A DNA stretch of 64,000 nt from Sideroxydans sp. GTDB taxonomy: Bacteria; Pseudomonadota; Gammaproteobacteria; Burkholderiales; Gallionellaceae. Positions 1-48,483 of this stretch are shown in pieces (positions within the stretch are counted from its first letter, which is position 1; each line of letters starts with the position of its first letter). Location: the NCBI GenBank assembly GCA_028707175.1, contig JAQTUV010000002.1:1-64000 (forward strand). Reading direction: 5' to 3'. The notes beneath the pieces are model-generated. The model saw only the letters and a list, made by a program, of their open reading frames with translations, searched no databases and had not been told where the DNA came from. The position numbers and the translations under genes were made by a program.

Positions 1-1230
1 TGACCGCACCCAATACCGAGCCACTCACGCTCGCGGATGTTGCGGATGTTGTGCCGTCATACACTTTGCTTAGCGTGCCGCCGATGCTCGCAGTTGATGT
101 CAGCGCTTTGGTGCTGATCGTCACGGCAGCATTCGCTGCGTTAAGTGTGGGTAGTTGGTAGTTGCTGGCGAGGCCACCGGATAGGTCGGTGGCATCAGCT
201 AGGGTGAGTGCGCTGATGTATTTGTTTGCCGTCGCTACGTGTGCATCGTTCGCCGTTGCGCCGCTGTACGTCAGCGTTTCGCCTGCGATACCTGTGCCCA
301 GCGTCACCGCACCCGTTAGGCTGGTGGTGCCGTCGTAGGTCTTGCTAGCTGACAGCGTCACGGACTTAGCCGTGATAGTGGCAGCCACATCCACGCTGGT
401 GGCGGCCAATACGTAGTCAGAGATCGCTGAGCTTTGACTGCCAGCGATGCCGGTCAGACTGACGCCAGAGACCGTGACTTTGTTCGCTGTGGTTACGTCT
501 TTGCTGTTATAGGCTGCACCCGTGCTCGTCACACTCGCTGTGGTGTCTCCCGTTACCAATCCCGAGAAACCCCAGCTTGGGGTAAAGCCTGTTGGGGCAG
601 CTAGTGTGCCGTCGTAAGTCTTGCTCACGCCGGTGTTGGTTAGGCTCAGGGTGAGTGTTGCCTCTGTGATGCTGGCCGTAGCATCGGCAATCGTTGGATT
701 GCTAAAGCTGTAGTCGCTGCTCAGGCTGCCGACCGTGCTGCTGATGATGTAGCCAGCATTGCCGCTTGCTGAAATGCGGTTAGCCCCCACCACGTGCGCT
801 GAGTTATACGCCAACGTTACGCCGCTGGTGTCGAGCGAGAGGGTGTCGCCACTGACTGCACCCGATACCGAGCCACTCACGCTCGCGGCTGTTGCGGATG
901 TTGTGCCGTCATACACTTTGCTTAGCGTGCCACCGATGCTCGCAGTTGATGTCAGCGCTTTGGTGCTGATCGTTACGGCGGCATTCGCTGCGTTAAGTGT
1001 GGGTAGTTGGTAGTTGCTGGCGAGGCCACCGGATAGGTCGGTGGCATCAGCTAGGGTGAGTGCGCTGATGTATTTGTTTGCCGTCGCTACGTGTGCATCG
1101 TTCGCCGTTGCGCCGCTGTACGTCAGCGTTTCGCCTGCGATACCTGTGCCCAGCGTCACCGCGCCCGTTAGGCTGGTGGTGCCGTCGTAGGTCTTGCTGG
1201 CTGACAGTGTCACTGTCTTGGCGGTGATAG
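1..1230 (-). repeat. Near-identical 852-bp-period direct repeat in the YDG/MBG region of tpsA
   Basis: Bases 1-378 recur almost unchanged at 853-1230, offset by exactly 852 bp (284 codons), with only scattered single substitutions. The unit encodes two YDG modules, and a third, diverged module lies between the copies. Because the offset is a multiple of three, gain or loss of a unit would keep the frame. The repeat runs into the left edge, so further copies may exist beyond it. Confidence 0.9.
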
Positions 1231-4200
1231 TTGCCGTTCCGCTGGCACCAGTTAGCGTGTAGTTGTTGGCAAGGGTACTGCCGAGGGTGAGCCCATTTAG
1301 CGTGAGCGTTTGACTGCCCGCATTCACGTTTTGGCTAGCAAAACTAGCGCTGCCAGTCACGCCGCAGGTTGCCAGTCCACTGGCGCAGTCACTTCCAACC
1401 AGATTGCTGGCGATCAGTGCGCTGACTGAAATGCTCGTTGTGCCATCGTATACACGACTTCCAGATAGCGTTAGAGGGCGTTTGTCGATGTTCAGAGCAC
1501 CGTTAACGTAAGTGAAGCTGTAGTTGTTGCTGGTCAGACCAGTGGGCACGATGGTGTAGGTACCCGAGTTTGTCGCCGCTTGGCTGGAGCCAGAAAAAGA
1601 CAATGTGCCGCCCAGTACGCTGCTGCTTTCACCATTGGCGAAAGCACTATAACCAACGCTATAACCGCCGCCATAGGTCGCACCGTCATAGACCTTGTTT
1701 GCAGTATTTGCAGTGACCGTCAGAGGCGCTTTGGCCTGGGTATAGGTGGTGGCCGTTGAGTAGGGATTGAGAATGAAATCCAAAGCATTCGCGCCCGTGA
1801 AACTCAAGCCACTGAGATAGGACAGGCTGTAAGTGCCCGGCGTTGTCGTGTTGCCAATATCAAGGCTGTAGTGGGCTGTCCCCGTGGTGCCGCTCAATCC
1901 AGCGTAACTACCCGTACCCAATGTGATCGGGTTGCCTAAAGCATCAACCAACTGGTATGCCGTCGATGCGTTGCCGTAAGTTCCCGAGCTGGTTGATTCC
2001 TTCACATAGATCTGAGTCGGTGGGGTCGGAATTGATTTCAATGTTGGCCGAGAACTGACTCCCCATTCGTTCGATGAGAAGCCTGAAGGCAACACCGTGC
2101 CGCCCGAGGTGTTCAATGTTGAGGCGTTATAAACGCTAGTGCCTGTGCCACCGGTCATGGAACCGACTGTGCTCTGCGTGGTGTACAGCCGATCAAACGT
2201 CCCGGCAAGTGCAAACCCAGCGATACCCCCGAAGGAGCTGCCATTGCCGACCACATTACTCCACGAATAGCTGTCTAGGATGGAGTTACCCGACGAGAAA
2301 ACCACGCCCACCAAACCGCCGGTGCCGTAGTAACCGCCATGACTTCCTTCGACGATTGAACCGGTTGAATAACCCTTGCTGATCGTGAAAGCGACTGTGC
2401 TGCTGGTTGTCAGTGTGTGGGCCGTAAGCACATTCGTGTTAATGCCGATATCGCCAATCAAACCACCAATGGCAAGGTTGCTTGAGTACGAACCTTGTGA
2501 ACTGACGTTAGCCAGACTGTAGGAGCGTGACAGATTCATGGTCCCGCCGTTCTGGCTGCCCACTAGACCGCCAGCGAAGAAGAATTTCTGGCCGCTGCCT
2601 GCCGTCGTTGAAATAGTCCCCGTACTCCAGATGCCGTCGAGCGTAGTCACCGATGATGTTGGCGCGCCCGCGCCGCCGACATTGCCGATGACACCGCCCA
2701 CTCGGGGCTCGGTCGTATTGGCACTCGTGCCGAGATTAGTCGAGTTGGTGGTGATGCTCATGTTCGTTACGCCCACCTGACGCACCGTGGCGCCATTCAC
2801 TTGGGCGAACAGACCGAGATTGCCACCGGCCGTGTTGCTGATGGTCAATCCATCAAGGGTGTTGCCCAAACCATCGAACTTGCCGGTGAACGTTGGGGTG
2901 TAAAAGGCCGTCGAATAGCTTGTGCCCGCCAGCGACAAACCGTGGCCCAGCGCGTAATTACCGCTGGCGCTCATGCCTTGTAATGCCGTCACGTCATTCA
3001 CCACCGTGTAGCTGATATTGCCGAGCGTCAGTGTCGGCGCACTGCCGGTGAGTTGGATAGTGTTACGGTTAGCTAGGTTGACAAAATAGCTCGTGCCCGC
3101 TGTCGGTGCCGTCGTACCGTTGGTGCCACCGTAGAAAATATTCAGCGCAGCGGCGGCATTGGAGGCAGCCAGATTGGCGTTCACAAAAATGTTGTTGCCC
3201 GCCTTCAACGTCAGGCTGTTGGCGTGGCTCCAACTCATATTGCCAACCACTTGCAGGTCGGATCCCGTACCCGCCTGAGCAACCAGGGGATCATTCCAAG
3301 TCGACAGCCCGCCGATCTGAACTGCCCCAGTAGTGCTGCCACCTAGAGTGATGCTGGAGAATCCATCCTGTAACCAAGCCAACTGATCCGCACCAATCTG
3401 CACCGTGCCGCTACCCGTACCGATGCCCAGCGTGGCGCCAGTAGTCTTAGGCTGGATTTGCAGCGCGCCCGTCGAAATGACATTGGCACCCAAAGCAAGA
3501 CTGTCTGTGCTCAGTGTGATGTTGCTGCTGCCCGCGTTGATAGCTTGCGTGGTTGTCAGCGTTCCCGAAGTCAGCGCAACCGCGCCCGTGGCCGTAATGC
3601 CGTTGGTGCTGCCCACTGAACCGATGGTCAGCGCATTGCTGTCGGTATAGGTCAGGCCGCTGACACCGCTCGCGGCTAGCGTGTTCACGTTGTTGCTAGC
3701 ATGGTCGAGCGTGACGTTGCCCCCCAAGAGGAGCAAATTGTCCGCCACGAGGTAACCGCTGACACCGTCGGTGATATTGCCACTACCGGTGAGTGAGATC
3801 GTGCTGTTGGTGGCGGTCAGTGCCGCGTTGACGGTGATATTGCCGCCGTAGATGTTGATCGGGCCGGTGATGTTCTGTGCACTGCCCACCGTGATGTCGG
3901 CGGTGTTGCCCGCTTTACCCAGACGTAGGCTGGAGGGGTTGCCCGAGATGCTCAACCCGCTGGTGGAAAACGCACTGCTGAAGCTGGTTGTCAGCGGTTC
4001 GATCACGAGCGCACCGCTGGATTGCAATGCCCCTGCGAGCAACAGCGTGTCGGACGTGAGCGTAATGTCACTGCTGGAACTGGCGACCAAATTACTGTCA
4101 TAGCCGATGACGGAGCCTGCCAGCATCCGGATGCCAGAACCGATATTGGGCGACGAACCCACCGTACCGTTCAACGAAATGGCACCACTGGTCGAGAGAA

Positions 4201-7200
4201 TATTGGTGCCTGAGCCCCAGAGGTAAATACCGCTATTGTCCTGGTTGTTGCTATTGCCACCCCCGTGCCCAACGATATTAATCGCGCCGCTACCGGATTT
4301 GATGACGCCGGAGGCCATGCCGATGCCGGTGGTATAGCGGTTTGTCAATCCGGCCCCACCCCATCCGTTGAGGCTGATGGTTCCGGCATTGTTGGTCTGA
4401 ATGACGGGCTGGGAACCGGTACCAATGAACCCCAGCAAAATCCCTTCACCACCTGTCGTCCCCTGACCATTGAGTACGATATTGCCACCCGTTGCCGAGC
4501 CTCGGGCATCCAGTGTCGTGCCCAGTGTTGTCCAGATGCCGCGCTGTGCCGACGCACCTGTCCCCACGGCATAGGTGGTGGTCGGCGTCAGGCCGCCGCC
4601 CAAGGTGATATTGCCGCCGTTGCTGGTGATGCTCGCACCTGAATACATGACAATGCCGCCGGAACCACTGCCCGTACTGTTGGCATCGTAGGTCACACTG
4701 CCGCCATTGGTGGTGACCGCCACGCTGGCGGCCTGCAAGATATTACCGGTGGCCTGCGCCAGAATCGCTGTATTGCTGGCCGTGCTGGTCAGATTCGCGT
4801 TGAGGTTAATGTTGCCGCCGTAGATGTTGATCGGGCCGGTGATGCTCTGTGCACTGCCCACCGTGATGTCGGCGGTGTTGGTGGTCTTGCCAAGAGTCAA
4901 ACTACTGATGCCGCCAGCCAGAGTCAAACCACCTTGCGACCAGGTTAAAGCGCTGGTGAAACTGTTGCCGTAAGGTGCTACGGTGACGGCACCCGAAGTG
5001 TTGATCGCTAACGTATCAGCCGTCGCAATCGCATCGGCTTCGATCAGCACATTACTCGTTGAACTCGTGACAACACTGCCCGCTTTGGCGCCGAGATAGA
5101 CCCCGTTGCTGCCATTCCAGTTTGAAATGTTGAGGCCACCTGCGCTCCGGCCGATCAGGCTGATATTGCCGCTAGCCGCCAGCACATCCACCCCTGTCAG
5201 CCGAATGTCGGTTGGAGAAGTGCCAGTCGCTTGGCCGTCCAAGGTGACCGAGCCCGTGCCCGTCGCCGCAAAGATATCGCGGTTGGTGCTGGTGCCATCA
5301 ATTGCCATTGCAAAGTTGGATGTTCCACCGGAAGCGCGTCCCACGATCAGGACATTTCCATTCGCCGTGGTGAACGTACTAGATGCCACGTAGCCGTTGC
5401 TGCGCCAAGCGGCCAAATCCATACCGAGGGTCACGACTCCACTCACTGCCGAAACCCCGACGAGCGTCAAATCACCAGAAGTACCGGCATTGACGGTCAG
5501 CCCTTGGTAGGCCCCAACACCCACCGGCCCCCCGCCCACGAGTGTGGTCGCCTTGCCGTGGATGGCGATGTCGCCACCGCCTGAATACAGATTGATCGCA
5601 GCGTTGTGTCCCACTCCCGTGTCATTGCCGAACAAGACACCAGTTTGAGCATTGAGGCTGCCTAGGTTGACAGCATAACCATCGGGCCTGCCGTCACTGG
5701 CAAGCAATCCGCCATCCAAGCTGTTGCTACCAGAGGCCGCACCGCCATCGTCGAGACCGCCCGCCAGCGTGATGCTGCCACCGCCGCTGGCAGTGCTGGT
5801 GTTGCCCGCAGTGCGGTCGCTGGCTGTACGGCTGTCGAGCGTCCTGTTGTCCGTGACTTGAATGCCACCCGCACCCGATGCATCACTATCCGCCCACAGT
5901 GTGATGTCACCAGCGTTGGTGACTAGGTTGGCATTGGCAATGACATTGCCCGATCCCTTGAGCAAGATGTCCGCGCCCGATGCCGTGCTGGTCAGGTTGG
6001 TATTGACGGTGATGTTGCCGCCGTAGATGTTGATCGGGCCGGCGATGCTAATCGCGCTGCCGATGGTGATGTTCTGGGTATTGCTGGTCTTACCGATGGT
6101 CAGACCAGTAAGCAAGCTGCTCAAAACAGAAGCAGAAGGCACTGTAAAAGCAGATGCAAACGAAGTGCCATAAGATTGAAGCGTAAGCTGTCCTGTTGAG
6201 GCAATCGCGCCTGTCAGCGATAAAACATCTCCGTTAACCGTGATATTGGAAGATGAACTCGCAATGGTGGAGCCTGATTTTTGCCCGACGTTGCTACTAA
6301 TATCCACCGCTGAATAACCTGCACCATAGCCTGTCCCAGTCAGCGCAATCGCACCGGAGTTGGCTAGTACAGATGAACCAGTATCTACTTTCACGCCTGA
6401 ATTTTTTGCACCACTGCCAGTGATATTGATACCACCGCCATTTGTCGCCAAGATACTTGTGCCACCCCATAGATAGACACCCCAAGCATTCAGTGCAGCG
6501 GCGGTTATAGCTGTGCCGTCCAGAGTGATAGCATTTGCCGAAGTGGATGATGACCTAAATACAGAAGTCCCTGTGCCACTAGTTTCAATCCCGTTACTGT
6601 TACCCGATGTTGCTTGAGCATACCCATATAGACTCAGCAAACCACTACCGCTATCTACGGTCACACTCCCATGTGTACGAATACCATTCGTACTGGCGCT
6701 AACGTAATCAGTTGACGCATAGTTAGTTACGGCACCTGTTGTACTTTTTCCTCGGATAGCAATATCTCCGCCATACGAGTTCAATGTCGCCGCATCTAGC
6801 GTGACACCATTACCCATGGTAGTGGTCATCCCCATAGCGTAGCCAGTCGTTCCCAAATCGCCTTGGGCTACATTGCCGCCAGAGAGGATGATATTTGCCG
6901 CAGAGGTGGTCGAGATACTACTGCCCGAATTCAGCCAGATATAACCACCGTTTGTGCTGTCGCTATCCGCCCAGAATGTGACATCCCCACCTGTTGTAGA
7001 AATAGATTTATTACTAGCCAGCGTTATGGAACCCGAACCCTTGAGCAAAACATCCGCACCCGATGCCGTGCTTGTCAGATTCGCGTTGACGCTGATATTG
7101 CCGCCGTAGAGGCTGATCGGCCCATTGACGCTTAATGCATTGGTACTAACAACATCTTGCGTATTCGTACTTTTACCGACAGTGAAACCGGATAACGTTG

Positions 7201-10200
7201 ATGGAAAGTAGAACCAAGCCGTATCGACACCTTGACCAAAGCTGGCATCGCTGGATTCAAATGTGAATGTGCCGGTGGTGGAAGTGATGGTTGGGCTTTG
7301 GCCAACACCCACAGCCCAGCTCATTGTCTCACCGCGCACCACCACATTGCCGCTACCGGCACTCATGGTGGTGTAATCCAGATCCAGCAGACCAGCACCG
7401 TTTGCATCGGCATCAGCAATAAGCGAGAGGTTGCCGTTATTTGTCGTGATCGTTTTTGCCGTATTGGCGGTAGAGATATTGCCGTTCGCGCTGATCAAAA
7501 TCGTTGCGCCGGAAGCTGTTGCGGTGAGGCTATTGTTAAGCGAGACATTTCCGCCATAAATGCTGATCGGCCCCGCAACACTGCTTGGGCTATCAACGGT
7601 GATATTGCCAGTTGCGTTGAGCGATAGGGCTTGGTTTGCGTTGGTGATGGTGAGCGCACTCGCAGCGACGCGCAAATCAGCGGTGCTGTTCGCAGTCAGT
7701 GCGTTGTTGTAGGTCTGCGCGCCCGTGGTGACCAGTGCCGAACCGTTGATGGTGGTTGATGCAGCATTCACGGTAAGTGAAGCCAGTGCCTTGCTGCCAC
7801 CCACGCCTCCATCAATCGTCACTTGGCCTGTTCCGGCATTGATGGTGACAGCGGAGGATGCCAGATTGGTTTCGCGAACGTAGCCGAGTACGGCGTATTG
7901 ATTGGTGCTCGGCGTAGCACTGAAGGTGGTATTGGGTGTCAGGTCATTCCACAACCCTGCCGTGCCGAAGAATTGGCCTGCCGACTCGTTGCCCGCTAAA
8001 GTGCCATTGGGTTCACCTGAGCCAAAGTTTGAGTAGTAGCTGGCTGTCGTTGTACCGCCACCTCCGGTGCTGTTTTGTGTGTAGAACTGCGCGCCAGCTT
8101 CAGGCCCGTCGGCCCAGGTCCACGCAAAAGTAGACGTGGGGTTGGCGCGGTAGGCTCCGATCCATCCGCCTTTATAACCGGCAGCCAAGCCAGCAAGGGC
8201 ATTCTCCAGACGCGAGGTGATGGTCACCAGATAGCTGTTGCCTACGGCTGCCCCACCCGCCGTCCCATTCTTTGCATCGGTTCTGGCCCAAGTCCACGAT
8301 TGCGTACCATCTGGGCCATCCACATAGGTGTAGAGATTGCCCGAGTTGAGGACCCCGTGCAGTCCGACATTGCCGCCGCCGCTGTCAAACGTTATTCCGC
8401 CGGTGTTACTGACGATGGTTTCGCCATAAATATCCAGTGCGCCACCGCCTGTGGAAATCGTCTGAGCCGAGACGCCATTAAAATACACATCACCACCCAC
8501 CAGTACCGTACTGCCGTTGATACTGGCTGTCTGGTTGTTACCGAACTTCAGCCAGCCGCCGTTGGTATTGAGGCTGGTGCTGGTCACCTGCACGATGCCA
8601 TCCCCTGAGTTGTCCGAGTCCGCCCAGAGTTGAAGATTCAATAATCCGCTGCTTGCGTTGATCGTTGCGCCGCTTTGCAGCGAGATGTGCCGCGCCGCTT
8701 TCAGTGTGAGTGTTGCGTTGCCCCCCAAGGTTTTGTTGATGGCAGCCGTCACCATAATGTCGCCGGCATCCGCAGGGTTTCCTGATGAACCGTAACTGCT
8801 GTTAGTGAGCGCGGTATCCACCGTCACACTCGTGCCGCTATTCAAGCCACTATTGGCGTCACCGACTATGGCTGAAATCTGGGAAGCACCGATCGTGTAA
8901 CTGTAGGGATCGATCAACCACTCACCGCCCGCCCCCGCTGGGGCGCCAGCATTGACTTTTGCACCATCGATGCCGACTTGGTGGCCTGATGTTTCGACCT
9001 GTCCGCCATTGCCGCCCAGCGGGCCGCCGAGTGCGGTGATGCTGCCGTTGACCGTGGTTTGCGAGTCGGCGTTATGCACATCACTCCACAACACAACTTT
9101 GCCGCCGTTGCCTTGTTGCGTTGCACTAGCATCAATACGAGCACCTGCCGCCATGGTCACGGTTGTGGCTTGGGCGATGTCGCCGCTGCCTTGCCAGTCA
9201 CCACCGATGTTGACGCTGCCACCACCAGTCGCACCCGAGGCGTTGATGCTGGCGTTGTCTGTGATGAGTACGTCGTGAGCGGTGGCGATGAGGGTGCCGC
9301 CGTTGCCGGTGGTGGATGAAACATCCACGGTGCCGCCGATATTAGCGGTTCCCGCCGTTGTCCCTGCCGATAGGATGATGGTGCCGTTTTGATTCTCTAC
9401 CGCGTGTGCCTCGAGGATGCCGGTGTTGTTCACGACGCTGGCGAGCAGTGCATTCTGTGCGCCGGCGGTCATGACGATTTGCCCGCCATTGGCTTGTATG
9501 AGGCCGCCGTTTTCGGCGAGGTTGTCTAGGGTGCTTTGGTCAACCTGCATGTGCGCCAATCCGCTGCCGTTGAAGGTGAGCGTGGCGGCGCTGCTCGCGC
9601 CCAGTACGACGCTGCCGAGTTGGGCGACGATGCTGCCTTGGTTGCCAACGTGATTACCGAGTAATGCGACATAGCCGCCGTTGGCTGCGTTGATCGTGCC
9701 TTGGTTGATGATGCTGCCGCTGCCATTGCCTGAGAAGGCAACGCTGCCGCTGCCTATTTGGGCATCATTAAAATCTAGGGTGGAGGCAACAAGGCCGCCG
9801 ACGTTGACTTGTGCGCCTTGTCCAAACAGTACGCCATTCGGGTTGATGAGCCACACTTGGCCGTTGGCATTCAGGTGGCCGAGGATTTGCGAACCGTTGG
9901 TATCAAAGATGCGGTTGACGGCGATAGCAGTTGCCGAGGGTTGCAGGTAGTTGACGGTTTCATTGGGGGATACGTTGAAGGTTTGCCAGTTGAGCGATAA
10001 GTTCTGTGAGGTTTGCTGAATGTTGGTGGTGCTGCCAGTCTGAGCGATGGTGCCGCTGCCTGATACGACTTGTCCGCCGGTGGGGGCGGCTTGCGCTAGC
10101 GGCGCTAGGCTTAGGGCTAGGGTTGAGATGAGTACTTTGCGCTTTGTGGCGCTCTTACCGCGTCCTTTGGTGTTTTCAGATACAGCAATCCATGTGCTGA

Positions 10201-10237
10201 GCACATGACTCCAAATAACACGAAAGATACGGTTCAT
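1..10237 (-). CDS. Giant two-partner secretion exoprotein (TpsA, filamentous haemagglutinin-like), C-terminus beyond left edge
   Basis: The frame reads open from an ATG at 10237 to the left edge, 3412 codons without a stop, so this is a 5'-complete, 3'-truncated gene. Residues 1-25 (MNRIFRVIWS..., WIAVSE) form an extended signal peptide region (ESPR); a hydrophobic stretch ends in AQA at about residue 50. A TPS haemagglutination domain follows, with the NPNG motif at residues 132-135 that TpsB partners recognise. A long beta-helix-like repetitive region comes next, then GLUG repeats (GGLVG, GGLIG, GGVIG; about nt 2200-2760) and at least seven YDG/MBG modules marked by K-x-YDGT (nt 50-1690). 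The expected role is a secreted, surface-exposed adhesin exported through a TpsB barrel. No tpsB is present in the window. A good ribosome binding site (AAGGGG) precedes the ATG. Adhesin function is inferred from family. Confidence 0.93.
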   Translation of the reverse strand, partial: MNRIFRVIWSHVLSTWIAVSENTKGRGKSATKRKVLISTLALSLAPLAQAAPTGGQVVSGSGTIAQTGSTTNIQQTSQNLSLNWQTFNVSPNETVNYLQPSATAIAVNRIFDTNGSQILGHLNANGQVWLINPNGVLFGQGAQVNVGGLVASTLDFNDAQIGSGSVAFSGNGSGSIINQGTINAANGGYVALLGNHVGNQGSIVAQLGSVVLGASSAATLTFNGSGLAHMQVDQSTLDNLAENGGLIQANGGQIVMTAGAQNALLASVVNNTGILEAHAVENQNGTIILSAGTTAGTANIGGTVDVSSTTGNGGTLIATAHDVLITDNASINASGATGGGSVNIGGDWQGSGDIAQATTVTMAAGARIDASATQQGNGGKVVLWSDVHNADSQTTVNGSITALGGPLGGNGGQVETSGHQVGIDGAKVNAGAPAGAGGEWLIDPYSYTIGASQISAIVGDANSGLNSGTSVTVDTALTNSSYGSSGNPADAGDIMVTAAINKTLGGNATLTLKAARHISLQSGATINASSGLLNLQLWADSDNSGDGIVQVTSTSLNTNGGWLKFGNNQTASINGSTVLVGGDVYFNGVSAQTISTGGGALDIYGETIVSNTGGITFDSGGGNVGLHGVLNSGNLYTYVDGPDGTQSWTWARTDAKNGTAGGAAVGNSYLVTITSRLENALAGLAAGYKGGWIGAYRANPTSTFAWTWADGPEAGAQFYTQNSTGGGGTTTASYYSNFGSGEPNGTLAGNESAGQFFGTAGLWNDLTPNTTFSATPSTNQYAVLGYVRETNLASSAVTINAGTGQVTIDGGVGGSKALASLTVNAASTTINGSALVTTGAQTYNNALTANSTADLRVAASALTITNANQALSLNATGNITVDSPSSVAGPISIYGGNVSLNNSLTATASGATILISANGNISTANTAKTITTNNGNLSLIADADANGAGLLDLDYTTMSAGSGNVVVRGETMSWAVGVGQSPTITSTTGTFTFESSDASFGQGVDTAWFYFPSTLSGFTVGKSTNTQDVVSTNALSVNGPISLYGGNISVNANLTSTASGADVLLKGSGSITLASNKSISTTGGDVTFWADSDSTNGGYIWLNSGSSISTTSAANIILSGGNVAQGDLGTTGYAMGMTTTMGNGVTLDAATLNSYGGDIAIRGKSTTGAVTNYASTDYVSASTNGIRTHGSVTVDSGSGLLSLYGYAQATSGNSNGIETSGTGTSVFRSSSTSANAITLDGTAITAAALNAWGVYLWGGTSILATNGGGINITGSGAKNSGVKVDTGSSVLANSGAIALTGTGYGAGYSAVDISSNVGQKSGSTIASSSSNITVNGDVLSLTGAIASTGQLTLQSYGTSFASAFTVPSASVLSSLLTGLTIGKTSNTQNITIGSAISIAGPINIYGGNITVNTNLTSTASGADILLKGSGNVIANANLVTNAGDITLWADSDASGAGGIQVTDNRTLDSRTASDRTAGNTSTASGGGSITLAGGLDDGGAASGSNSLDGGLLASDGRPDGYAVNLGSLNAQTGVLFGNDTGVGHNAAINLYSGGGDIAIHGKATTLVGGGPVGVGAYQGLTVNAGTSGDLTLVGVSAVSGVVTLGMDLAAWRSNGYVASSTFTTANGNVLIVGRASGGTSNFAMAIDGTSTNRDIFAATGTGSVTLDGQATGTSPTDIRLTGVDVLAASGNISLIGRSAGGLNISNWNGSNGVYLGAKAGSVVTSSTSNVLIEADAIATADTLAINTSGAVTVAPYGNSFTSALTWSQGGLTLAGGISSLTLGKTTNTADITVGSAQSITGPINIYGGNINLNANLTSTASNTAILAQATGNILQAASVAVTTNGGSVTYDANSTGSGSGGIVMYSGASITSNGGNITLGGGLTPTTTYAVGTGASAQRGIWTTLGTTLDARGSATGGNIVLNGQGTTGGEGILLGFIGTGSQPVIQTNNAGTISLNGWGGAGLTNRYTTGIGMASGVIKSGSGAINIVGHGGGNSNNQDNSGIYLWGSGTNILSTSGAISLNGTVGSSPNIGSGIRMLAGSVIGYDSNLVASSSSDITLTSDTLLLAGALQSSGALVIEPLTTSFSSAFSTSGLSISGNPSSLRLGKAGNTADITVGSAQNITGPINIYGGNITVNAALTATNSTISLTGSGNITDGVSGYLVADNLLLLGGNVTLDHASNNVNTLAASGVSGLTYTDSNALTIGSVGSTNGITATGAVALTSGTLTTTQAINAGSSNITLSTDSLALGANVISTGALQIQPKTTGATLGIGTGSGTVQIGADQLAWLQDGFSSITLGGSTTGAVQIGGLSTWNDPLVAQAGTGSDLQVVGNMSWSHANSLTLKAGNNIFVNANLAASNAAAALNIFYGGTNGTTAPTAGTSYFVNLANRNTIQLTGSAPTLTLGNISYTVVNDVTALQGMSASGNYALGHGLSLAGTSYSTAFYTPTFTGKFDGLGNTLDGLTISNTAGGNLGLFAQVNGATVRQVGVTNMSITTNSTNLGTSANTTEPRVGGVIGNVGGAGAPTSSVTTLDGIWSTGTISTTAGSGQKFFFAGGLVGSQNGGTMNLSRSYSLANVSSQGSYSSNLAIGGLIGDIGINTNVLTAHTLTTSSTVAFTISKGYSTGSIVEGSHGGYYGTGGLVGVVFSSGNSILDSYSWSNVVGNGSSFGGIAGFALAGTFDRLYTTQSTVGSMTGGTGTSVYNASTLNTSGGTVLPSGFSSNEWGVSSRPTLKSIPTPPTQIYVKESTSSGTYGNASTAYQLVDALGNPITLGTGSYAGLSGTTGTAHYSLDIGNTTTPGTYSLSYLSGLSFTGANALDFILNPYSTATTYTQAKAPLTVTANTANKVYDGATYGGGYSVGYSAFANGESSSVLGGTLSFSGSSQAATNSGTYTIVPTGLTSNNYSFTYVNGALNIDKRPLTLSGSRVYDGTTSISVSALIASNLVGSDCASGLATCGVTGSASFASQNVNAGSQTLTLNGLTLGSTLANNYTLTGASGTATITAKTVTLSASKTYDGTTSLTGAVTLGTGIAGETLTYSGATANDAHVATANKYISALTLADATDLSGGLASNYQLPTLNAANAAVTISTKALTSTASIGGTLSKVYDGTTSATAASVSGSVSGAVSGDTLSLDTSGVTLAYNSAHVVGANRISASGNAGYIISSTVGSLSSDYSFSNPTIADATASITEATLTLSLTNTGVSKTYDGTLAAPTGFTPSWGFSGLVTGDTTASVTSTGAAYNSKDVTTANKVTVSGVSLTGIAGSQSSAISDYVLAATSVDVAATITAKSVTLSASKTYDGTTSLTGAVTLGTGIAGETLTYSGATANDAHVATANKYISALTLADATDLSGGLASNYQLPTLNAANAAVTISTKALTSTASIGGTLSKVYDGTTSATSASVSGSVLGAV
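3832..7585 (-). repeat. Dispersed repeats encoding an 'IYGG' beta-helix module in tpsA
   Basis: A segment of roughly 40-75 bp, centred on a block that reads PINIYGG on the coding strand, recurs at about 3832, 4805, 6008, 7095 and 7545. The copies at 3832 and 4805 are nearly identical over about 70 bp; the others are more diverged. Spacings are about 970, 1200, 1090 and 450 bp, so these are duplicated beta-helix blocks of unequal length, not a simple tandem array. Confidence 0.75.
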
Positions 10238-15065: not shown

Positions 15066-18000
15066 TTAGCGATGGAAGGCCGCCACACCACTCATTGAGG
15101 TTGTGCCATTTTGGAAACCATACACCACGGCGGCTCCGTTACCATTTGCCCCCGTAAATGCTCCGCCAATAGTGGCGTTCGTTGTGGTGACGCCATTAAT
15201 GCTCGCCGTTACCGTACCGCCATTAGCGAATCCAAAGGTGCTGCCAGGCTGAATCGGCAGGTTGCTTCCATTAACAATGTAGCTTGTCGCATTCACCGTA
15301 GCATCCACACCAAGGTTCACGGTCTGCGCTGTGAAGTTGGCTTGCAAGGTTGCACTGTTCACCGTGCCCACATTGCCTAAGCTATCGCTAGGTTGCGTAC
15401 CGCCGGCATGCACATAATTAAATGTACCCGTCGTAGGCAAGACCACTTGCCCGACCATCGTCGGGCCTGCAATCCAGTGCGCATTCGTATTCGCCTTGCT
15501 CGTCACAATCCCGGTGACTCGATCTGTCATCGTCAAATTACCGCCACTCCAACGCCCCCAACTGATTCCCGATACTGGATCGGTAGCGACATTCATCTGC
15601 GTCACTGCGGTGTCAATCGCGATTGAAGATGAAGCTGAATTGGCATATTGATTCCCGTTATTGTTATTCCCCATATCCAATCCGGTTACGCCATTGGTCT
15701 GCGTATCAATCACAACACGACTTGCATTGTTCGCGCCTCCATTCATTTGCATGCCCTTAACAGGGTCCGCCAAAGTCAGGATGACTAAACGAGATGCAGG
15801 AATAGTGAGACCTGCACCTGCCACGCCATTCACCGCTGTTTGGTTAAAAGCAGCGACACCATTAACTGACACCGTATTCGTTACACTCGTTACTGCATCA
15901 GTTTGAGATGAGGTCAGCGCATATTGCATGACAGCGCCATTTAACAATGTGCCTGTCAACTGACCTGAAACATAAGAGCCCGTTGTATTACTCACGGCCA
16001 CACCATCCAACGTAATCGAAAGCGCGCCAGATCCTGTCGCCAAATTGGACGCTTTGAATTCAGAGGTGGTATTCCCGTTATTGCTGGCTAAAGGTGCCGC
16101 ATTTGCTGCGGGTGTACTCACCACCCAAGTGTGACCATCTGCCACTACCGTAAAGTTGATCGCAACCGCTTGTTTGTTAAAGTCTGCCACCAAACTGGCA
16201 TTGGACACAGCCCCCGTTACCACGGGGTTAAGCGTTCCTGACAGCGTTTGTGAGGTGGGAGTGGTTCCACCGTCAAAAGAGTAGGCTGCCGTACCGAGTA
16301 GCGATTCCACAAAAAACTCAGGCACTGCGGGGCCCGTTATCCAATGAAACTGCGTATCGGCCGCTGGATTGGTGCTCGCATAGGTAGAACTGCCCACATC
16401 CCATGTTCCCAAGCGAATGCCTGTACTAGCTAGTCGTCCAGAACACGTTGCGCAAACGACCGTGTTAGAAAAAGCATATCCGCCATTGGCCACCGTCGCT
16501 GTTGAACCATAACTGGTTAATACGTTATTAGCATCAACCGTCACGGTTGATGCATTTTGCACATCCGTTCCCATATTCGTGCCCGCAGTCGCCACCAAAT
16601 ACGTCAGCGGAGTTACGGGTGCGGCATTGGCCACTGTTGGGTTCGTTGCCACGCCTGCACGCGTCATCGCAGCAACACCCGTCACACCATTGCCCGTGCC
16701 CGTTGCGTTGTCATACAAATGATAGGCAAGCACGGCACCCGCGTAATTTTGCCCAGTGAATCCACCATTGATACTGAAGCTACAACTTGGACAGGATTCC
16801 GTGCCTGTAGCCCCCATCGTGATACTTGACGATGCATTGGCCGCAGCAGCAGCCCCTCCATTGAGGTAAAAGTTTGCCCCGGAAAGGGGCAACCCACTTG
16901 CAGTCGCGTTCCAAATCGTCGCGCCCATGGTGGCACTCAAGGCAGAACTGATCGTGCTATTTGCAAAATCAGCGGTGAGGGTCAGTGAATTGAGCGTCCC
17001 CACTTGTCCATTCCAATCTGTCGGAGCCGTTTGAACACCATCCAATACATAAGCAAAAGTTCCGGTAATGCCCGCCCCAGTAGCCGCAGACAGACTAGTG
17101 GGCGTGTCTAAATAGCCCGTCTCGCCATATGCCCAGCGCCCCGATTGATTGCCATTATTGATTCCCCCGAAGGTATTGCTATAGCCCTGGGTGATCGAGC
17201 TAATACTTGCGTAACGACCAAACTGAATGCCCGTGCTGGCAGACGAAGTTGCACTGCCATTGATCGCACCTGTCGCGCCGACCAAAGCCGTTGAGTTACC
17301 CGAATTACTGCCGCCCCAACTAAACGCGAAGCTAGGGCTAGGCAAGGCCGTGACGACATTGCTTGGCAAGGTGGTGAAAGAGTTATTCCAGTTTTGAGTG
17401 AAGCCATAGCCACTTTGCGAACTCAAACTCACTGCGATATCTGAACTGGCAGTAGGTGCGGCAGCGGTCGCGACACTCGGCGCAGTTGCGGTGTCAAAGG
17501 CCACATAGCCCGCGACCACATCAGACAAATTAGTTGCACCCACAGCGCCAAAACCATAGCCCAACAAAACACCACTAGACGTTGCTCCCGTAAAGCCGCC
17601 CTTGATATCGCCCGCAAACCTTCCCGTGCAAGGCCCTACCATACAGGCAATCACACTTGGGTTATTCGTTGAAGTTGAGAACGACTGTTGGCTAATCGGC
17701 AGATTACTCGCGCTGAGACTAAACACACCCCCCGCATAGGTGCCGGTGTTCATCGTAATGTTGAGCGCAGCGTTCACGCTTTGATTGGCGAAATCGGCAC
17801 TCAAGCTTGCGCTATTCAATACGCCCATCCCACCTTGCGTATCAAACGGTGTCGTATTGGCTGTCTTGGTATAACTCGATGTGCCCGTCAAAGTTTGCAC
17901 GTAGCCATTGACCGGAGAGATTGCATAGGCCCAAACACTACTTGTCGGGCCCACCATCGCACCACTCTGCGCGAGACTGATTGCAAAAGGAGCGAACGCG

Positions 18001-20507
18001 CCCGTCGTCGCTTGATCGACAACATCCAAAGTGCCGCCCTGCCAACGCCCAAAAGTGATACTGCCATCGGCAGCTTGATATTGATCCGCCGCTACCCCAC
18101 CCGTCCATGCCAATTGCGCATTGGCAATCGCCATAGGTGTTGCGCCATTAACATAGTCCACGGCATTGTTCCTAAACTTCACGACATGACCGCTACCATC
18201 CAAAGTGATATCGGTATTCGACACAAGCAGTGCATTCGCACTGCCCAACAACTGATAACCACCGGTGACCGCGTAAGGTGTCAGGAACTGCCGGGCGTAA
18301 TTGCCGAGCGCGGGATTGTGATAAGCAGCGATGGGTGCATTTGTCGCCACCACGGCAGCATTGTTGTTTAACACAGCTAGTTGCGTGGAGATTGTTGTCA
18401 CTTCAGCACTGGCAGCTGCCACTGCCGTATTGGCAGCAGCAGCTTGAGTTTGCGCAGTGGTTGCTGCTGCAGCGGCATTATTGGCCGCTGTCACAGCCTC
18501 CGATACCGAGGTATTCGCCACCAAAGCGGCTGCTTGAGCCTCACTCAGTTGCGTATTAATCAGCGTCCGCGCATCGATTGCTTCCTTCTGTTTAGTTTGG
18601 GCAATGATCAACTGTTGTTGCGCAATCGCGAGTTGCGCTTGCGCGCCAGTCAAGTCTCCATCCACCTGTAAGGTGGTCGCTAGCGTGGCCGCCGCTTGGG
18701 CCGCTGTCGCAGCGGCTTGTGCCGCCGCATCTGCGGCTTGCGCAATATTCAACTGTGTCGACGCTAAAGTTTGTGCTGCCGCAATGGCCGTATTCTGCGT
18801 GCCGACTGAATTAACTTTATTCGTCGCCGATGACAGATCCGTCGTCGCAGCTGTCAAGGCTGCACTTGCGGCTGCCTGTGCGGAAGCAAGTGCGGTGTTG
18901 TTAGTCACGATACTGGCAGCACTTGTTTGCGCCGAATTCTTTGCCGACTGCACTGCCGCATTCGATGCTTGGATCGTTGTATTCGCAGTTGCAGCGACCA
19001 CATCAGCCAACGTCCCATTCGCAGTGAACGCTGCCTGCGCGGTCACTGCCTGTGCATCAACAGTGCTTGCCATTGTAGAGAAGCTAGTCACATTAGGGAC
19101 CGCACGTGCTGTCAGACCCGCTGCCGAGTTCACAGCAGTGTCCGCTGACGTTTTGGCCGTTGTCGCAGCGCTAATAGCCGATGTTGCTGGCGCCACACTC
19201 ACCGGCGCAATCGCTGCCAATGAATTCTTTGCCGTCACTGCCGCTGCTGTCTCTAACTGCGTCGCCGTCGCCGCGACCAAAGCAGCATCTGCAGCCGTTT
19301 TAGCCTGCGTAGCGTAAACGCCATTTTGAATCGATACCTTTTCACCTCCCGCTGTCAATGTTTGCGATGTGGTGTCTAATTGTTGCCCGCCATTGGATAA
19401 GGTGACAGGAAGCACGGTGGACGCACTAGGAAGTAGACCTGTTGGAGGACGACTAGTACTTTCTGGCTGTGCGACGACAGCCGGCATACTCGTGCCAATA
19501 TTGCTTGGCAATTGGGTGTTATCGACTACCGCCGAATCACGTATCGCACTAGGCGCCAAGTTACCATCTCTTAATGATTGACCAGTAGGGCTGTCCTGAA
19601 GATTGGATGAAGATGGATTCGAGTTTGCCTCACCGTTATTGGCCTCACGTGTATCGCGAGTTGATACTGGCTCTGGGGCGTTTTGTTTAGCTTGCCCCGT
19701 TTGTTGTTCATTTTCAGAGGAAGATTGCCCACCTTCTCCTGCTTGTGAAGCAGGCTCTGGTTTAGCCGCCTTGCGCTCAGATTTTTCATCCGCGCCAGTT
19801 GCCTTATTACTTTCTTTTGCAGGTTTTTCACTCTGCTCTTTTTCAGATTTATCCGACTTGATTGTTTTGGTTGGCGTTGCCGACACGGTATACAGCTGCG
19901 TGTTAATTGGCTGAATTTGCGGCGCTTGATCCAGCCCTCCAGCGAAGCCCATCTGATTAGGCAATACGCTGATCGTGCCCTTATCGGTGGTCAGCGTAGT
20001 CTCACCCACGTTGACTTTGCTATACGCTCCTGCATCCGCACCTTGAATGCCAGCGGGCAAATATACCGTTTCGTGATCCGTACCTCTAATACCGATCGTG
20101 GCTGCTGGCGTTCTAATCTTGTAGTCAGACTTGTTGATACGACCAATCAATCCTGTGACCGCGCGAAAACCTCCGCGAAACAAAGAAAATACGCCGCGCT
20201 CTGGCTGCCCAGCTTTACCAGAAAACTTAAACTCATCAAACTTGAGTTGCGTGTCTGGACGCACCGCAATAAAGCCACCATCTTTCATTTTGATTTGCGC
20301 TGAAGCATTGCGTGCAGTGCTGACCGTATCGCCCTCATTCACGGCGTCACCTTTACGCAAAGTGTGCGACTCTCCCGAGAGCTCGGTAAGCGTCACTCCG
20401 CCATACACGAACTGCACCTGGCCTGCGACAGTTGCCTCTGCGATACCTGATTGCAGCATCAACACAAACAAACTCAAAGTTCCTAAAAAGCTTTTTTTGC
20501 TATTCAT
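15066..20507 (-). CDS. Giant FecR-domain exported protein with Ala-rich coiled coil and four C-terminal beta modules
   Basis: 1813 residues from the ATG at 20507, which has GGTGAGG just upstream; an in-frame TTG at 20534 is a poorer start. Order: Sec signal peptide (about 1-25, ending AEA, no lipobox Cys), FecR domain (about 27-155, with GDTVSTARNASAQIKM and RTPAATIGIRGTD), a charged K/E/Q/S-rich linker (about 215-390), an Ala-rich predicted coiled coil (about 395-740), then four diverged modules of about 200 residues. Each module runs from a GxxxGRW-like start, through an HWIxGP/TGTxxY stretch and a TLNSAxLxADF block, to GGFTGxxxxGAxLxY and GVAAF, resembling the beta-barrel domain of Slam/T11SS cargo. 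It follows a Slam-like translocon gene by 23 bp, so it is the likely cargo. Surface or secreted function is inferred. Confidence 0.88.
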   Translation of the reverse strand: MNSKKSFLGTLSLFVLMLQSGIAEATVAGQVQFVYGGVTLTELSGESHTLRKGDAVNEGDTVSTARNASAQIKMKDGGFIAVRPDTQLKFDEFKFSGKAGQPERGVFSLFRGGFRAVTGLIGRINKSDYKIRTPAATIGIRGTDHETVYLPAGIQGADAGAYSKVNVGETTLTTDKGTISVLPNQMGFAGGLDQAPQIQPINTQLYTVSATPTKTIKSDKSEKEQSEKPAKESNKATGADEKSERKAAKPEPASQAGEGGQSSSENEQQTGQAKQNAPEPVSTRDTREANNGEANSNPSSSNLQDSPTGQSLRDGNLAPSAIRDSAVVDNTQLPSNIGTSMPAVVAQPESTSRPPTGLLPSASTVLPVTLSNGGQQLDTTSQTLTAGGEKVSIQNGVYATQAKTAADAALVAATATQLETAAAVTAKNSLAAIAPVSVAPATSAISAATTAKTSADTAVNSAAGLTARAVPNVTSFSTMASTVDAQAVTAQAAFTANGTLADVVAATANTTIQASNAAVQSAKNSAQTSAASIVTNNTALASAQAAASAALTAATTDLSSATNKVNSVGTQNTAIAAAQTLASTQLNIAQAADAAAQAAATAAQAAATLATTLQVDGDLTGAQAQLAIAQQQLIIAQTKQKEAIDARTLINTQLSEAQAAALVANTSVSEAVTAANNAAAAATTAQTQAAAANTAVAAASAEVTTISTQLAVLNNNAAVVATNAPIAAYHNPALGNYARQFLTPYAVTGGYQLLGSANALLVSNTDITLDGSGHVVKFRNNAVDYVNGATPMAIANAQLAWTGGVAADQYQAADGSITFGRWQGGTLDVVDQATTGAFAPFAISLAQSGAMVGPTSSVWAYAISPVNGYVQTLTGTSSYTKTANTTPFDTQGGMGVLNSASLSADFANQSVNAALNITMNTGTYAGGVFSLSASNLPISQQSFSTSTNNPSVIACMVGPCTGRFAGDIKGGFTGATSSGVLLGYGFGAVGATNLSDVVAGYVAFDTATAPSVATAAAPTASSDIAVSLSSQSGYGFTQNWNNSFTTLPSNVVTALPSPSFAFSWGGSNSGNSTALVGATGAINGSATSSASTGIQFGRYASISSITQGYSNTFGGINNGNQSGRWAYGETGYLDTPTSLSAATGAGITGTFAYVLDGVQTAPTDWNGQVGTLNSLTLTADFANSTISSALSATMGATIWNATASGLPLSGANFYLNGGAAAAANASSSITMGATGTESCPSCSFSINGGFTGQNYAGAVLAYHLYDNATGTGNGVTGVAAMTRAGVATNPTVANAAPVTPLTYLVATAGTNMGTDVQNASTVTVDANNVLTSYGSTATVANGGYAFSNTVVCATCSGRLASTGIRLGTWDVGSSTYASTNPAADTQFHWITGPAVPEFFVESLLGTAAYSFDGGTTPTSQTLSGTLNPVVTGAVSNASLVADFNKQAVAINFTVVADGHTWVVSTPAANAAPLASNNGNTTSEFKASNLATGSGALSITLDGVAVSNTTGSYVSGQLTGTLLNGAVMQYALTSSQTDAVTSVTNTVSVNGVAAFNQTAVNGVAGAGLTIPASRLVILTLADPVKGMQMNGGANNASRVVIDTQTNGVTGLDMGNNNNGNQYANSASSSIAIDTAVTQMNVATDPVSGISWGRWSGGNLTMTDRVTGIVTSKANTNAHWIAGPTMVGQVVLPTTGTFNYVHAGGTQPSDSLGNVGTVNSATLQANFTAQTVNLGVDATVNATSYIVNGSNLPIQPGSTFGFANGGTVTASINGVTTTNATIGGAFTGANGNGAAVVYGFQNGTTSMSGVAAFHR
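15069..18065 (-). repeat. Four diverged C-terminal modules of the FecR protein
   Basis: Approximate copies in coding order: 18065-17490, 17235-16655, 16425-15835 and 15575-15069, with a period of about 820-830 bp. They share the order FGRW or LGTW, a GT-x-Y strand, T(L/V)NSAxLxADF, an LPI/LPL strand, I.GGFTG, GAxLxY and a closing VAGYVAF/GVAAF. Modules 1-3 have paired cysteines near the middle or start (C-x4-C, CPSC, CATC); module 4 has none. Divergence is high, so this is an old duplication. Confidence 0.8.
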
Positions 20508-20530
20508 GGCGTACCTCACCGATACAAAAT

Positions 20531-21994
20531 TCAATTAAATTCGTGGCGCATCATTACGGATGCATCGCTACGGTCATAACTATAAATAGGGATGTTGGAT
20601 TGATTTCGTGACAGCGCGATCTGCGGACGTACGCTCCACTTTTTATTCACATGCCAGATTAGACCTGCACTCATATCGGAGGATGTATCGCTGCGTTGCG
20701 CTAGGAAAGTTTGGTTTTCTTTGTCGTATTGACCACGCTGAACGCCTACGCCTAGAAAACAATCCAGCGTTTCGTTCATCGCGAATTGCGCCCCTACACG
20801 CATGCCTGACATGGCTTTATTCCCATCTGGGCGCCCCCCACTTGGATTGAGCAATGTTTTCGGTGCCACCTCCGCTTCACGACCACCAAAGATACTGCCG
20901 TACACCACGGACTTTCCATTACCCAAAACATGCATCCAACTACTACCTAATAAAGATAGATCGTGGTCTTGCACTTTTGTGCTGCTATCCACAAAACGAT
21001 TTTGCGTGAGCTGTGCAAAGAAAGTGACTTGGTTGCTTGGACTCAAGCTATGACGCCATTCCGTAGTGAGCCCCATCGTGTTCCGGTTGGGCTTAACATT
21101 CGCGCCCAAGCGATATTGATCGCCGATAAAACCAAAGCGGATGACCTCACTCGAAAAGGCGTAAGAAACACCTCCATGAGCGGCGAGATCAAGAGAATTA
21201 AATTGTTGGCGTCCTGAATTTATTCTGCCCCGCAAATCTGCTCCCGCATACAGCCCCCAATTTTCATTGGCGGCATGATTCACTTCTGCACCACCCGCGA
21301 TATTTGCGTAATAGCTGGGTGTTTTCAAACTTCCCTGATCTAAGGTGAACATCAGATTGCCGAACGCTGGCACAACGATCTGTGCCTGGCTGGTTGCACC
21401 ATTAATGTTGCTGTCCCGCCCTAATGTTTCTTCTATGTAGGCAGTAATGCGCGTCTTTTGGGCTTGCTCATTAGCTTGAATCGCATCCAGATATTTTTGG
21501 ATCGTGATCCGTGCAGCCTCAGGGGGATTTTGTTTGAGCACCGCGTCGAATTCAGTCCTTGCTCGCGCGAGATCTCCAAGCTGATAGTAAGCACGTGCCA
21601 AATCCAAACGCGCTCCAGCAAAATTCTCATCCACGGCCAACACTCGCTCAAAGGCCAATGTTGCTTTATCTGGGAAGCCACTATCCAGTGCTGCTATTCC
21701 GAGCAGATAGTCAAAACGAATCGTTCCGGAATATTCGAAATCGAGCGGAGCCAGTAATTGATAGGCCGCCAGTGGGTGATTGGCATCAAGCAACTCAGTG
21801 GCATTGAGCAATGTTCTCTCAAACGCCTGCGCTTTTTCTTTGTCGTCAGATTGATCGGACTGAGTAATCGCCCCACCTGATGTCGCTTGTACACCAAGAT
21901 CAACTTCAGCCGCACCGCTCGTTACACTCTGGAAACACAGAACGCAAAAGACCGTAGCCCCTGCGGGTAGTTTTGACAGCATTGGAAGTTTCAT
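20531..21994 (-). CDS. Slam-like (DUF560, type XI secretion) outer-membrane translocon
   Basis: 487 residues. A signal peptide (about 1-28) is followed by TPR-like helices (about 50-180, with ARLDLARAYYQLGDLARA) and a C-terminal membrane barrel (about 190-487). The end pattern SNIPIYSYDRSD...MMRHEFN matches surface lipoprotein assembly modifier proteins, which end in strands with SNIxxYxYxR and a final aromatic. Known members move TbpB-like lipoproteins or haemophilin-like proteins across the outer membrane by recognising their C-terminal barrel. The next gene, 23 bp downstream, encodes a protein with four such barrel-like modules. No ribosome binding site is obvious at 21994; a small GCCCAA/TTGGGC hairpin abuts the start. 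An alternative is a general TPR outer-membrane protein. Confidence 0.8.
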   Translation of the reverse strand: MKLPMLSKLPAGATVFCVLCFQSVTSGAAEVDLGVQATSGGAITQSDQSDDKEKAQAFERTLLNATELLDANHPLAAYQLLAPLDFEYSGTIRFDYLLGIAALDSGFPDKATLAFERVLAVDENFAGARLDLARAYYQLGDLARARTEFDAVLKQNPPEAARITIQKYLDAIQANEQAQKTRITAYIEETLGRDSNINGATSQAQIVVPAFGNLMFTLDQGSLKTPSYYANIAGGAEVNHAANENWGLYAGADLRGRINSGRQQFNSLDLAAHGGVSYAFSSEVIRFGFIGDQYRLGANVKPNRNTMGLTTEWRHSLSPSNQVTFFAQLTQNRFVDSSTKVQDHDLSLLGSSWMHVLGNGKSVVYGSIFGGREAEVAPKTLLNPSGGRPDGNKAMSGMRVGAQFAMNETLDCFLGVGVQRGQYDKENQTFLAQRSDTSSDMSAGLIWHVNKKWSVRPQIALSRNQSNIPIYSYDRSDASVMMRHEFN

Positions 21995-48100: not shown

Positions 48101-48483
48101 CGCTCACCCCCACGGGCACACGCGGCGAGTATGTGGCGGCAGTCCGTTACCGCGCTTGGTGCCCACCTTCAGGTTTGCATCCCACCATCGGCGTGCAAGC
48201 CCCGCTGGTATTCGATTTGGTGGATAGCTGGAGCGGACGCTCCATCGGCGGCTGCACCTATCACGTGGCACACCCAGGCGGACGTAACTACGACACCTTC
48301 CCTGTGAACGCCAACGAAGCCGAGGCGCGCCGCGTGGCACGTTTCTGGAACCACGGCCACACACCGGGCGAGATGCATGTTCGCCGCGAAGGTCGCAATC
48401 CCGACTACCCGTTCACGCTGGACCTGCGCCGTGCACCTGAGCCGATGATGGAGGGAGTGGCAACTATCCGCCCCACTAGCTGA
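45124..48483 (+). CDS. Transglutaminase-like protein fused to DUF2126
   Basis: 1119 residues. The N-terminal part (about 1-270) is a bacterial transglutaminase-like cysteine domain with a probable triad of Cys184 (RGSCRDSAW), His233 (DLHAWTEVY) and Asp249 (GLDATSG). The rest (about 300-1119) is the large DUF2126 domain ([42 protein letters not shown]). Such fusions accompany ATP-grasp, alpha-E and Anbu genes and may process or form peptide bonds; function is inferred from the cluster. It is separated from the others by a terminator and a palindrome pair. Confidence 0.94.

Follow-up and report, generated by a model that had tools for sequence, protein, structure and literature searches.

Do the two adjoining genes at positions 15,066 to 21,994 of a 64,000-nucleotide stretch of Sideroxydans sp. 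(Gallionellaceae; assembly GCA_028707175.1, contig JAQTUV010000002.1, positions 1 to 64,000; hereafter the window) form a secretion pair of type 11 (T11SS, the Slam type)? We consider this probable: the upstream gene would encode a 487-amino-acid outer-membrane translocon and the downstream gene an 1813-amino-acid cargo, exported by way of its C-terminal lobe and carrying its lobes at the cell surface. A preliminary description, made from the letters of the DNA, had placed a Slam-like gene 23 bp ahead of a giant FecR protein, and both genes were found there, on the minus strand, with 23 bp between the translocon stop codon and the cargo ATG. The features are as follows.

20531-21994, minus strand: predicted Slam/T11SS-type outer-membrane translocon gene, 487 amino acids (PF04575 SlipAM at residues 193-486; AlphaFold2 predicted local distance difference test score, pLDDT, 88.3)
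21461-21856, minus strand: tetratricopeptide repeat (TPR) part of the translocon, residues 47-178, seven helices, expected to be periplasmic (Pfam TPR families over cut-off; model)
20534-21454, minus strand: membrane barrel of the translocon, residues 181-487, 14 long strands (AlphaFold2 model)
15066-20507, minus strand: cargo gene, 1813 amino acids from ATG (open reading frame list; start 23 bp past the translocon stop)
20433-20507, minus strand: Sec signal peptide, signal peptidase I (SPI)-like, residues 1-25, AEA/T, no Cys (read by eye; Cys positions)
20073-20330, minus strand: FecR domain, residues 60-145 (PF04773)
18318-19925, minus strand: linker, residues 195-730, a Pro-containing part and then an Ala-rich, helical-looking part (composition)
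17490-18224, minus strand: module 1, residues 762-1006 (module profile 87.9 bits, independent E-value 3.7e-29)
16659-17420, minus strand: module 2, residues 1030-1283 (62.8 bits, independent E-value 1.7e-21)
15840-16592, minus strand: module 3, residues 1306-1556 (33.2 bits, independent E-value 2e-12)
15069-15842, minus strand: module 4 as modelled, residues 1556-1813, hemophilin-like handle-plus-barrel lobe (pLDDT 88.9; Foldseek)

The Pfam family SlipAM (PF04575) matches the 487-residue protein at 37.1 bits against a cut-off of 22, and TPR_16, TPR_19, TPR_2 and TPR_14 exceed their Pfam cut-offs ahead of the barrel; among NCBIfam models none passed its cut-off for either translocon or cargo. 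In the AlphaFold2 model, computed from a 50-row alignment, seven helices are followed by 14 long strands, in agreement with the 14-stranded barrel of Slam. No solved Slam stands among the matches listed from the structure search or from the profile search (best 60 of 84), so that the assignment to the Slam family is based on Pfam, layout and gene context. That context comprises an adjoining cargo gene with a C-terminal 8-stranded barrel lobe, as indicated by the model of module 4, the fold search and the locus surveys.

The cargo gene was read from its ATG (a longer frame from a TTG at 20534 is listed mechanically). By eye, the 1813-residue protein opens with an SPI-like signal, T11SS cargo being expected to carry an SPI or SPII signal peptide, and since its first Cys is residue 955 there is no lipobox. 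FecR is the sole Pfam family over its cut-off in the cargo (30.1 bits against 24). The hydrophobic stretch begins after only six residues and no other Pfam family was found at the N-terminus, so that the layout of FecR anti-sigma transducers, with an N-terminal cytoplasmic part ahead of a membrane anchor, is not that of this protein. The composition of linker residues 385-730 (33% Ala, 4 Pro per 346 residues) would fit a long helix. Modules 1-3 were recovered by a profile built from 19 C-terminal modules, which included the last module of the window and left out the other three; the same profile places module 4 at residues 1592-1813 (independent E-value 7.8e-76). To judge from these scores, the homology of the four modules is far beyond chance. 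The copies are strongly diverged, since a self-BLAST of the cargo at E<=10 returned the self match only and no internal repeat pair, and no region elsewhere in the genome resembles the lobes at E<=0.01. The TPR helices and Slam-type barrel, the plain Sec signal without a lipobox, the FecR domain and the four module copies of the preliminary description are all upheld by these results.

The AlphaFold2 model of module 4 (60-row alignment) is nearly all beta, and 49 of the best 50 of 54 Foldseek matches in the PDB at E<=0.001 are titled hemophilin, TbpB, LbpB or fHbp, the remaining one being surface lipoprotein 3hoe. The best match is the Acinetobacter baumannii hemophilin 7re4 (E 6.5e-6). The model contains the handle and C-terminal 8-stranded barrel that characterize T11SS cargo, at template-modelling (TM) scores that are moderate. 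Profile-profile comparison of the C-terminal modules with TbpB_B_D domains that Pfam recognises in other genomes gave E 1.9e-6 (probability 89.7), and a wider module profile gave E 3.6e-5 (probability 71). Between the modules of a homologous FecR-headed cargo (L139) lies a Pfam TbpB_B_D domain (41.4 bits against 26), and none was found in three other long cargoes scanned in the same way. With a TbpB_B_D profile, 14 of 48 module proteins scored above 10 bits (L139 at 67.7 bits, the other positives at 11-20 bits), as against 0 of 480 shuffled sequences. Each module is, we conclude, a lobe of the hemophilin type, which known Slam cargo have in common. The modules had been taken for small cargo barrels; the last one does fold like known cargo, and the unit is a whole handle-plus-barrel lobe. 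The suggested structure prediction thus came out in favour of the idea, and the suggested Pfam search did not, no TbpB-type barrel family (nor any other Pfam or NCBIfam family) passing a cut-off on the modules.

A C-x(2-5)-C pair, possibly a disulfide or a metal site, is also frequent among the modules (54 of 68 internal and 33 of 42 C-terminal full copies, L098-L176). In the module region of the window, 15066-18311, the pair is present in modules 1-3 and absent from module 4.

Is the adjacency particular to this genome? A scan of GTDB contigs with a translocon alignment, itself drawn mostly from translocons having a FecR neighbour, confirmed 411 relatives, and 79 loci were obtained from the best 80, with FecR partners called by profile and then by Pfam. 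Because the neighbourhood sets used here and below overlap, they do not give independent counts. In 67 of the 79 loci (66 by a stricter rule) the gene immediately downstream encodes FecR, and the pairing, for which a search of related genomes had been proposed, thus co-occurs widely. The other 12 comprise four at a contig edge, four with a FecR or module gene upstream and four with neither within the limits used. PF04773 was found in 76 of the 77 N-termini scanned, the window included. Complete FecR-plus-module genes account for 38 of the 67 (544-2949 amino acids) and hold one module in 5 cases, two in 9, three in 13, four in 7, five in 2 and six in 2. Eighteen partners were classed as FecR-only (225-311 amino acids), or 17 without L174, which is FecR-only by profile, yet its sequence was read as holding a diverged module; 8 cargo genes are cut by contig ends. 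In the last 3, FecR is a separate small secreted protein encoded after Slam, and two of these loci (L152, L158) go on to a module protein that, by eye, carries a signal peptide of its own:

L158:9119-14327: split-FecR locus
L152:3957-7293: split-FecR locus
L147:5057-5524: split-FecR locus

The Sideroxydans genome itself (2.89 Mb, 19 contigs, same genus as G006, G009 and G021) holds a second Slam-FecR pair on contig C14 (L011:5497-9886), with a 449-amino-acid translocon and a 284-amino-acid FecR protein that ends in a Pro/Gly-rich tail, has no lobe and is followed by a CHASE2 cyclase gene; the two genes before the pair presumably form a two-component system. In this genome and 99 relatives PF04575 has 35 matches, and, the window's own excluded, 28 of 34 have a FecR-profile partner beside them. 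One of the six without (L063:3816-7438, in a family relative) is a classical T11SS locus, with two TbpB_B_D genes before the SlipAM gene.

Approached from the module side, the picture is similar. The module profile was run on 369 genomes of the class and matched 35 of them (own included), which belong to 27 of the 272 genera, and 40 module loci outside the own genome, from 34 genomes, were examined. FecR stands in the same frame as the module in 36 of the 40, and a translocon adjoins the module gene in 33 (32 upstream, 1 downstream). Four of the other seven lie at the end of a stretch, and L247 has FecR and a translocon somewhat further off; the remaining two are taken up below. FecR is the more constant partner in this Slam branch, more so than the modules. 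The surveys suggest that the pairing is a family recurring in many environmental bacteria and an undescribed T11SS branch.

Several observations weigh against reading the locus as a Slam pair. TPR_Slam (PF24575) is not among the Pfam matches of the translocon, and no Pfam barrel family, TbpB_B_D and FHBP_C included, was found in the window cargo at E<=1; the TbpB_B_D profile scan likewise returned no row for it. Of the four modules the fold was modelled for module 4, modules 1-3 being tied to it by profile homology, and its Foldseek query TM-scores are only moderate (0.35-0.45, root-mean-square deviation 7.8-16.3). A search of the PDB with the C-terminal-module profile yielded a single match at E<=10, hemophilin 8gm3 (E 8.1e-5), which carries a large composition bias and is not counted alone, and with the wider 60-row profile the hemophilin was lost and one chance-level match (E 1.2) took its place; hence the argument is carried by the fold search and the profile-profile comparison. 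In two class loci of one genus (L219 and L221, in G628 and G517) the module protein has neither FecR nor Slam beside it. Finally, the top solved folds for the translocon model in Foldseek are BcsC, FadL, PelB and OmpG, with BcsC first and PelB fourth.

This last result raises the possibility that the translocon exports polysaccharide in the manner of BcsC, PgaA and PelB, its FecR-lobe partner being periplasmic or associated with the polysaccharide. Confusion of the two families has a precedent, as PgaA/HmsH proteins fell in a DUF560 set and were removed from it, according to the main text of PMC8406197. The query TM-scores to BcsC and PelB are, on the other hand, only 0.30-0.34, SlipAM is over its cut-off, and the partner has Slam-cargo lobes in the gene order of Slam pairs. 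BcsC and PgaA form 16-stranded barrels, against 14 long strands in the model, and polysaccharide exporters have polysaccharide genes nearby. Here one flanking gene was scanned and encodes an aspartate decarboxylase, and the other we take to be purB; neither makes polysaccharide. We regard an exporter of this kind as very improbable.

Further points against export through the lobe come from the FecR-only loci. The 17 Slam loci of this class (L174 removed) lack any module in the partner, and in 15 of the 17 genomes, draft metagenome-assembled genomes of unstated completeness, no module was found at E<=1e-3. In the translocon tree these loci, together with L162, fall in one 18-row fork (support 90/94, not starred) nested among module-bearing translocons. 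One possible explanation is that FecR itself is the exported substrate or the element recognised by Slam, and that the lobes are passengers lost in one branch. The constancy of FecR and the three split loci, where it is a secreted protein of its own, are consistent with this. PF01298, too, was missing at E<=1e-3 from 17 of 17 FecR-only genomes, in a search that matched nothing anywhere, controls included (in a separate search the same model matched 22 of 300 genomes). Against it stand the unstated completeness of the drafts, the failed controls and the fact that a C-terminal barrel is the common element of studied T11SS cargo, as far as the main text of PMC12282271 describes it. FecR as the substrate or recognition element is an unlikely alternative. 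Because the tree is rooted at its midpoint, its topology favours loss of lobes in the FecR-only branch without requiring it. As with adhesins, the number of lobes can shift rapidly: L136 and L144 have translocons that are 90.9% identical in DNA, and cargoes of six and three modules, with about 1800 residues missing from one.

CHASE2 genes are a recurrent neighbour. They occur in 14 of the 40 class module loci, where random placement of the 98 CHASE2 matches in the 34 genomes would give 0.36, and in 9 of the 79 translocon loci, a bare count for which two of the three source proteins of the CHASE2 profile came from contigs within that set. A CHASE2 gene also precedes Slam in all three split-FecR loci and lies beside the second pair of the own genome. 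Such neighbours would suit a signalling role, in which FecR would monitor the surface lobes and pass their state on to an inner-membrane CHASE2 cyclase or kinase, and in Burkholderia one biofilm-regulating operon contains both a LysM-FecR gene and a gene for a CHASE2 kinase, according to the available sections of PMC5192318. No CHASE2 gene was seen among the scanned neighbours of the window pair, however, 26 of the 40 class loci and 70 of the 79 Slam loci lack one in the stretch examined, and CHASE2 may track FecR for reasons apart from Slam. Signalling of this kind remains a tentative and rather unlikely idea.

A second recurrent neighbour is an OGT-like glycosyltransferase of family GT41. 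It follows Slam and the FecR cargo at L069:4660-6816 (Pfam E 2e-103, Pfam having been run on L069 only), and is listed as third gene for L065, L069, L071, L072, L073, L075, L076, L081 and L217. In the relatives set 8 of 36 loci have it behind the cargo, 6 of these 8 having been used to build the profile, and in the class set 1 of 40; the 79-locus set has no clear case (L163, weak match, 167 bits).

How, then, would the Slam pair work? From the families, the fold of one module, the homology of the four modules and the adjacency, all computed here, and from the signal type, judged by eye, we infer transport, its direction, the topology, FecR docking and ligand binding along the following lines. 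Sec would export the precursor, which would not be lipidated. A periplasmic holdase would keep it unfolded, as Skp does with TbpB (PMC9090332, in the sections available). Slam would recognise the last, C-terminal hemophilin/TbpB-like lobe, and the lobes would traverse its barrel and fold outside, so as to stand as four handle-barrel units on a long linker, binding a ligand or a surface. The FecR head, which comes first after the signal in fused genes, would be docked in the periplasm at the TPR part of Slam and may anchor the lobes or report on them. We take the N-terminal FecR domain to be a working partner that this Slam branch conserves, and one that most likely stays periplasmic. The Gallionellaceae are a lineage of iron oxidisers; given this host and the hemophilin fold, iron, heme or mineral surfaces are plausible ligands.

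A bolder version of the same scheme is an outer-membrane-spanning sensor made of one polypeptide, with FecR folded in the periplasm at the Slam TPR part and unable to pass through, the linker threaded in the Slam barrel and the lobes outside sensing a ligand or surface; some loci would signal to a CHASE2 cyclase, and a derived branch would have lost the lobes and kept only the socket and FecR. If true, Slam would be both the exporter and the permanent socket of a non-lipidated cargo. We consider this rather improbable.

Among known systems, Slam1 and Slam2 with TbpB, LbpB, fHbp and HpuA (Neisseria and relatives, T11SS cluster 1A) share with the window the PF04575 TPR-plus-barrel translocon and an adjoining cargo with handle-barrel lobes, two in TbpB. 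Most cargoes in that group are one- or two-lobe lipoproteins, whereas that of the window is predicted to be non-lipidated, has four lobes and lacks a Pfam TbpB_B_D domain; we know of no FecR in Slam1/Slam2 cargoes. Soluble cargoes of the hemophilin type (Hpl, HphA, HrpC) are non-lipidated, have a Sec signal and show the same lobe fold (7re4, 8gm3), but consist of one lobe (solved chains of 234-244 residues) in contrast to the 1813 residues, four lobes, FecR head and long linker found here. Surface proteins of Sphingomonas and Psychrobacter are likewise predicted to be T11SS cargo, and the main text of PMC12282271 describes in them a low-complexity N-terminus followed by handle-barrel pairs in tandem. 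These proteins hold two or three such pairs together with Pro-Thr(-Asp) repeats; the window protein has four (its relatives up to six), a FecR head and an Ala-rich linker. In FecR anti-sigma transducers and the Burkholderia LysM-FecR/CHASE2 operon PF04773 is likewise expected outside the cytoplasm, and CHASE2 is nearby in some loci of the window family; the FecR of the window differs from the transducers in directly following a Sec signal and heading a protein with Slam-cargo lobes. The HMW1A/B/C two-partner system resembles the GT41 sub-branch in having a large exported protein, an outer-membrane translocon and a GT41-type glycosyltransferase in a row, but here the translocon is SlipAM and not TpsB, and the window locus has no GT41 gene.

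The claim that a multi-lobe cargo would be unusual therefore holds in part: the T11SS type and tandem lobes, two in TbpB and two to three in PMC12282271 as far as its main text goes, are already known, and four are not categorically new, while the FecR head is the new element. That study analysed clusters 1 and 3 of ten T11SS clusters, and words beginning with FecR are absent from its main text and from that of PMC8406197. Searches of open-licence papers gave no earlier account of the FecR head, of four to six lobes, of a separate FecR gene, of a lobe-free branch or of the CHASE2 and GT41 links. According to PMC12282271, only seven T11SS proteins are verified exporters, all of an animal-associated cluster, and most T11SS lack a known cargo. 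The present pair offers a concrete cargo class for an environmental T11SS branch that includes many iron-oxidiser relatives. A link between T11SS and FecR emerges from it, with weaker ties to CHASE2 cyclases and GT41 glycosyltransferases. One may now ask how a cargo is anchored without lipid, and natural variants with zero to six lobes may be used to find the part recognised by the translocon.

Scans for regulatory signals were not used, sigma-70 promoter-like sites numbering 1 against 6.7 in shuffles and terminator-like sites 21 against 8.5. Two further genes of the window may be mentioned. On the minus strand at 2-10237, a 3412-amino-acid open frame running off the window contains repeated YDGTTS-type units and appears to be another giant surface protein, whose start we take to be of the filamentous-haemagglutinin type. 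On the plus strand at 45124-48480, an 1119-amino-acid protein combines transglutaminase domains with a DUF2126 amidoligase-like domain.

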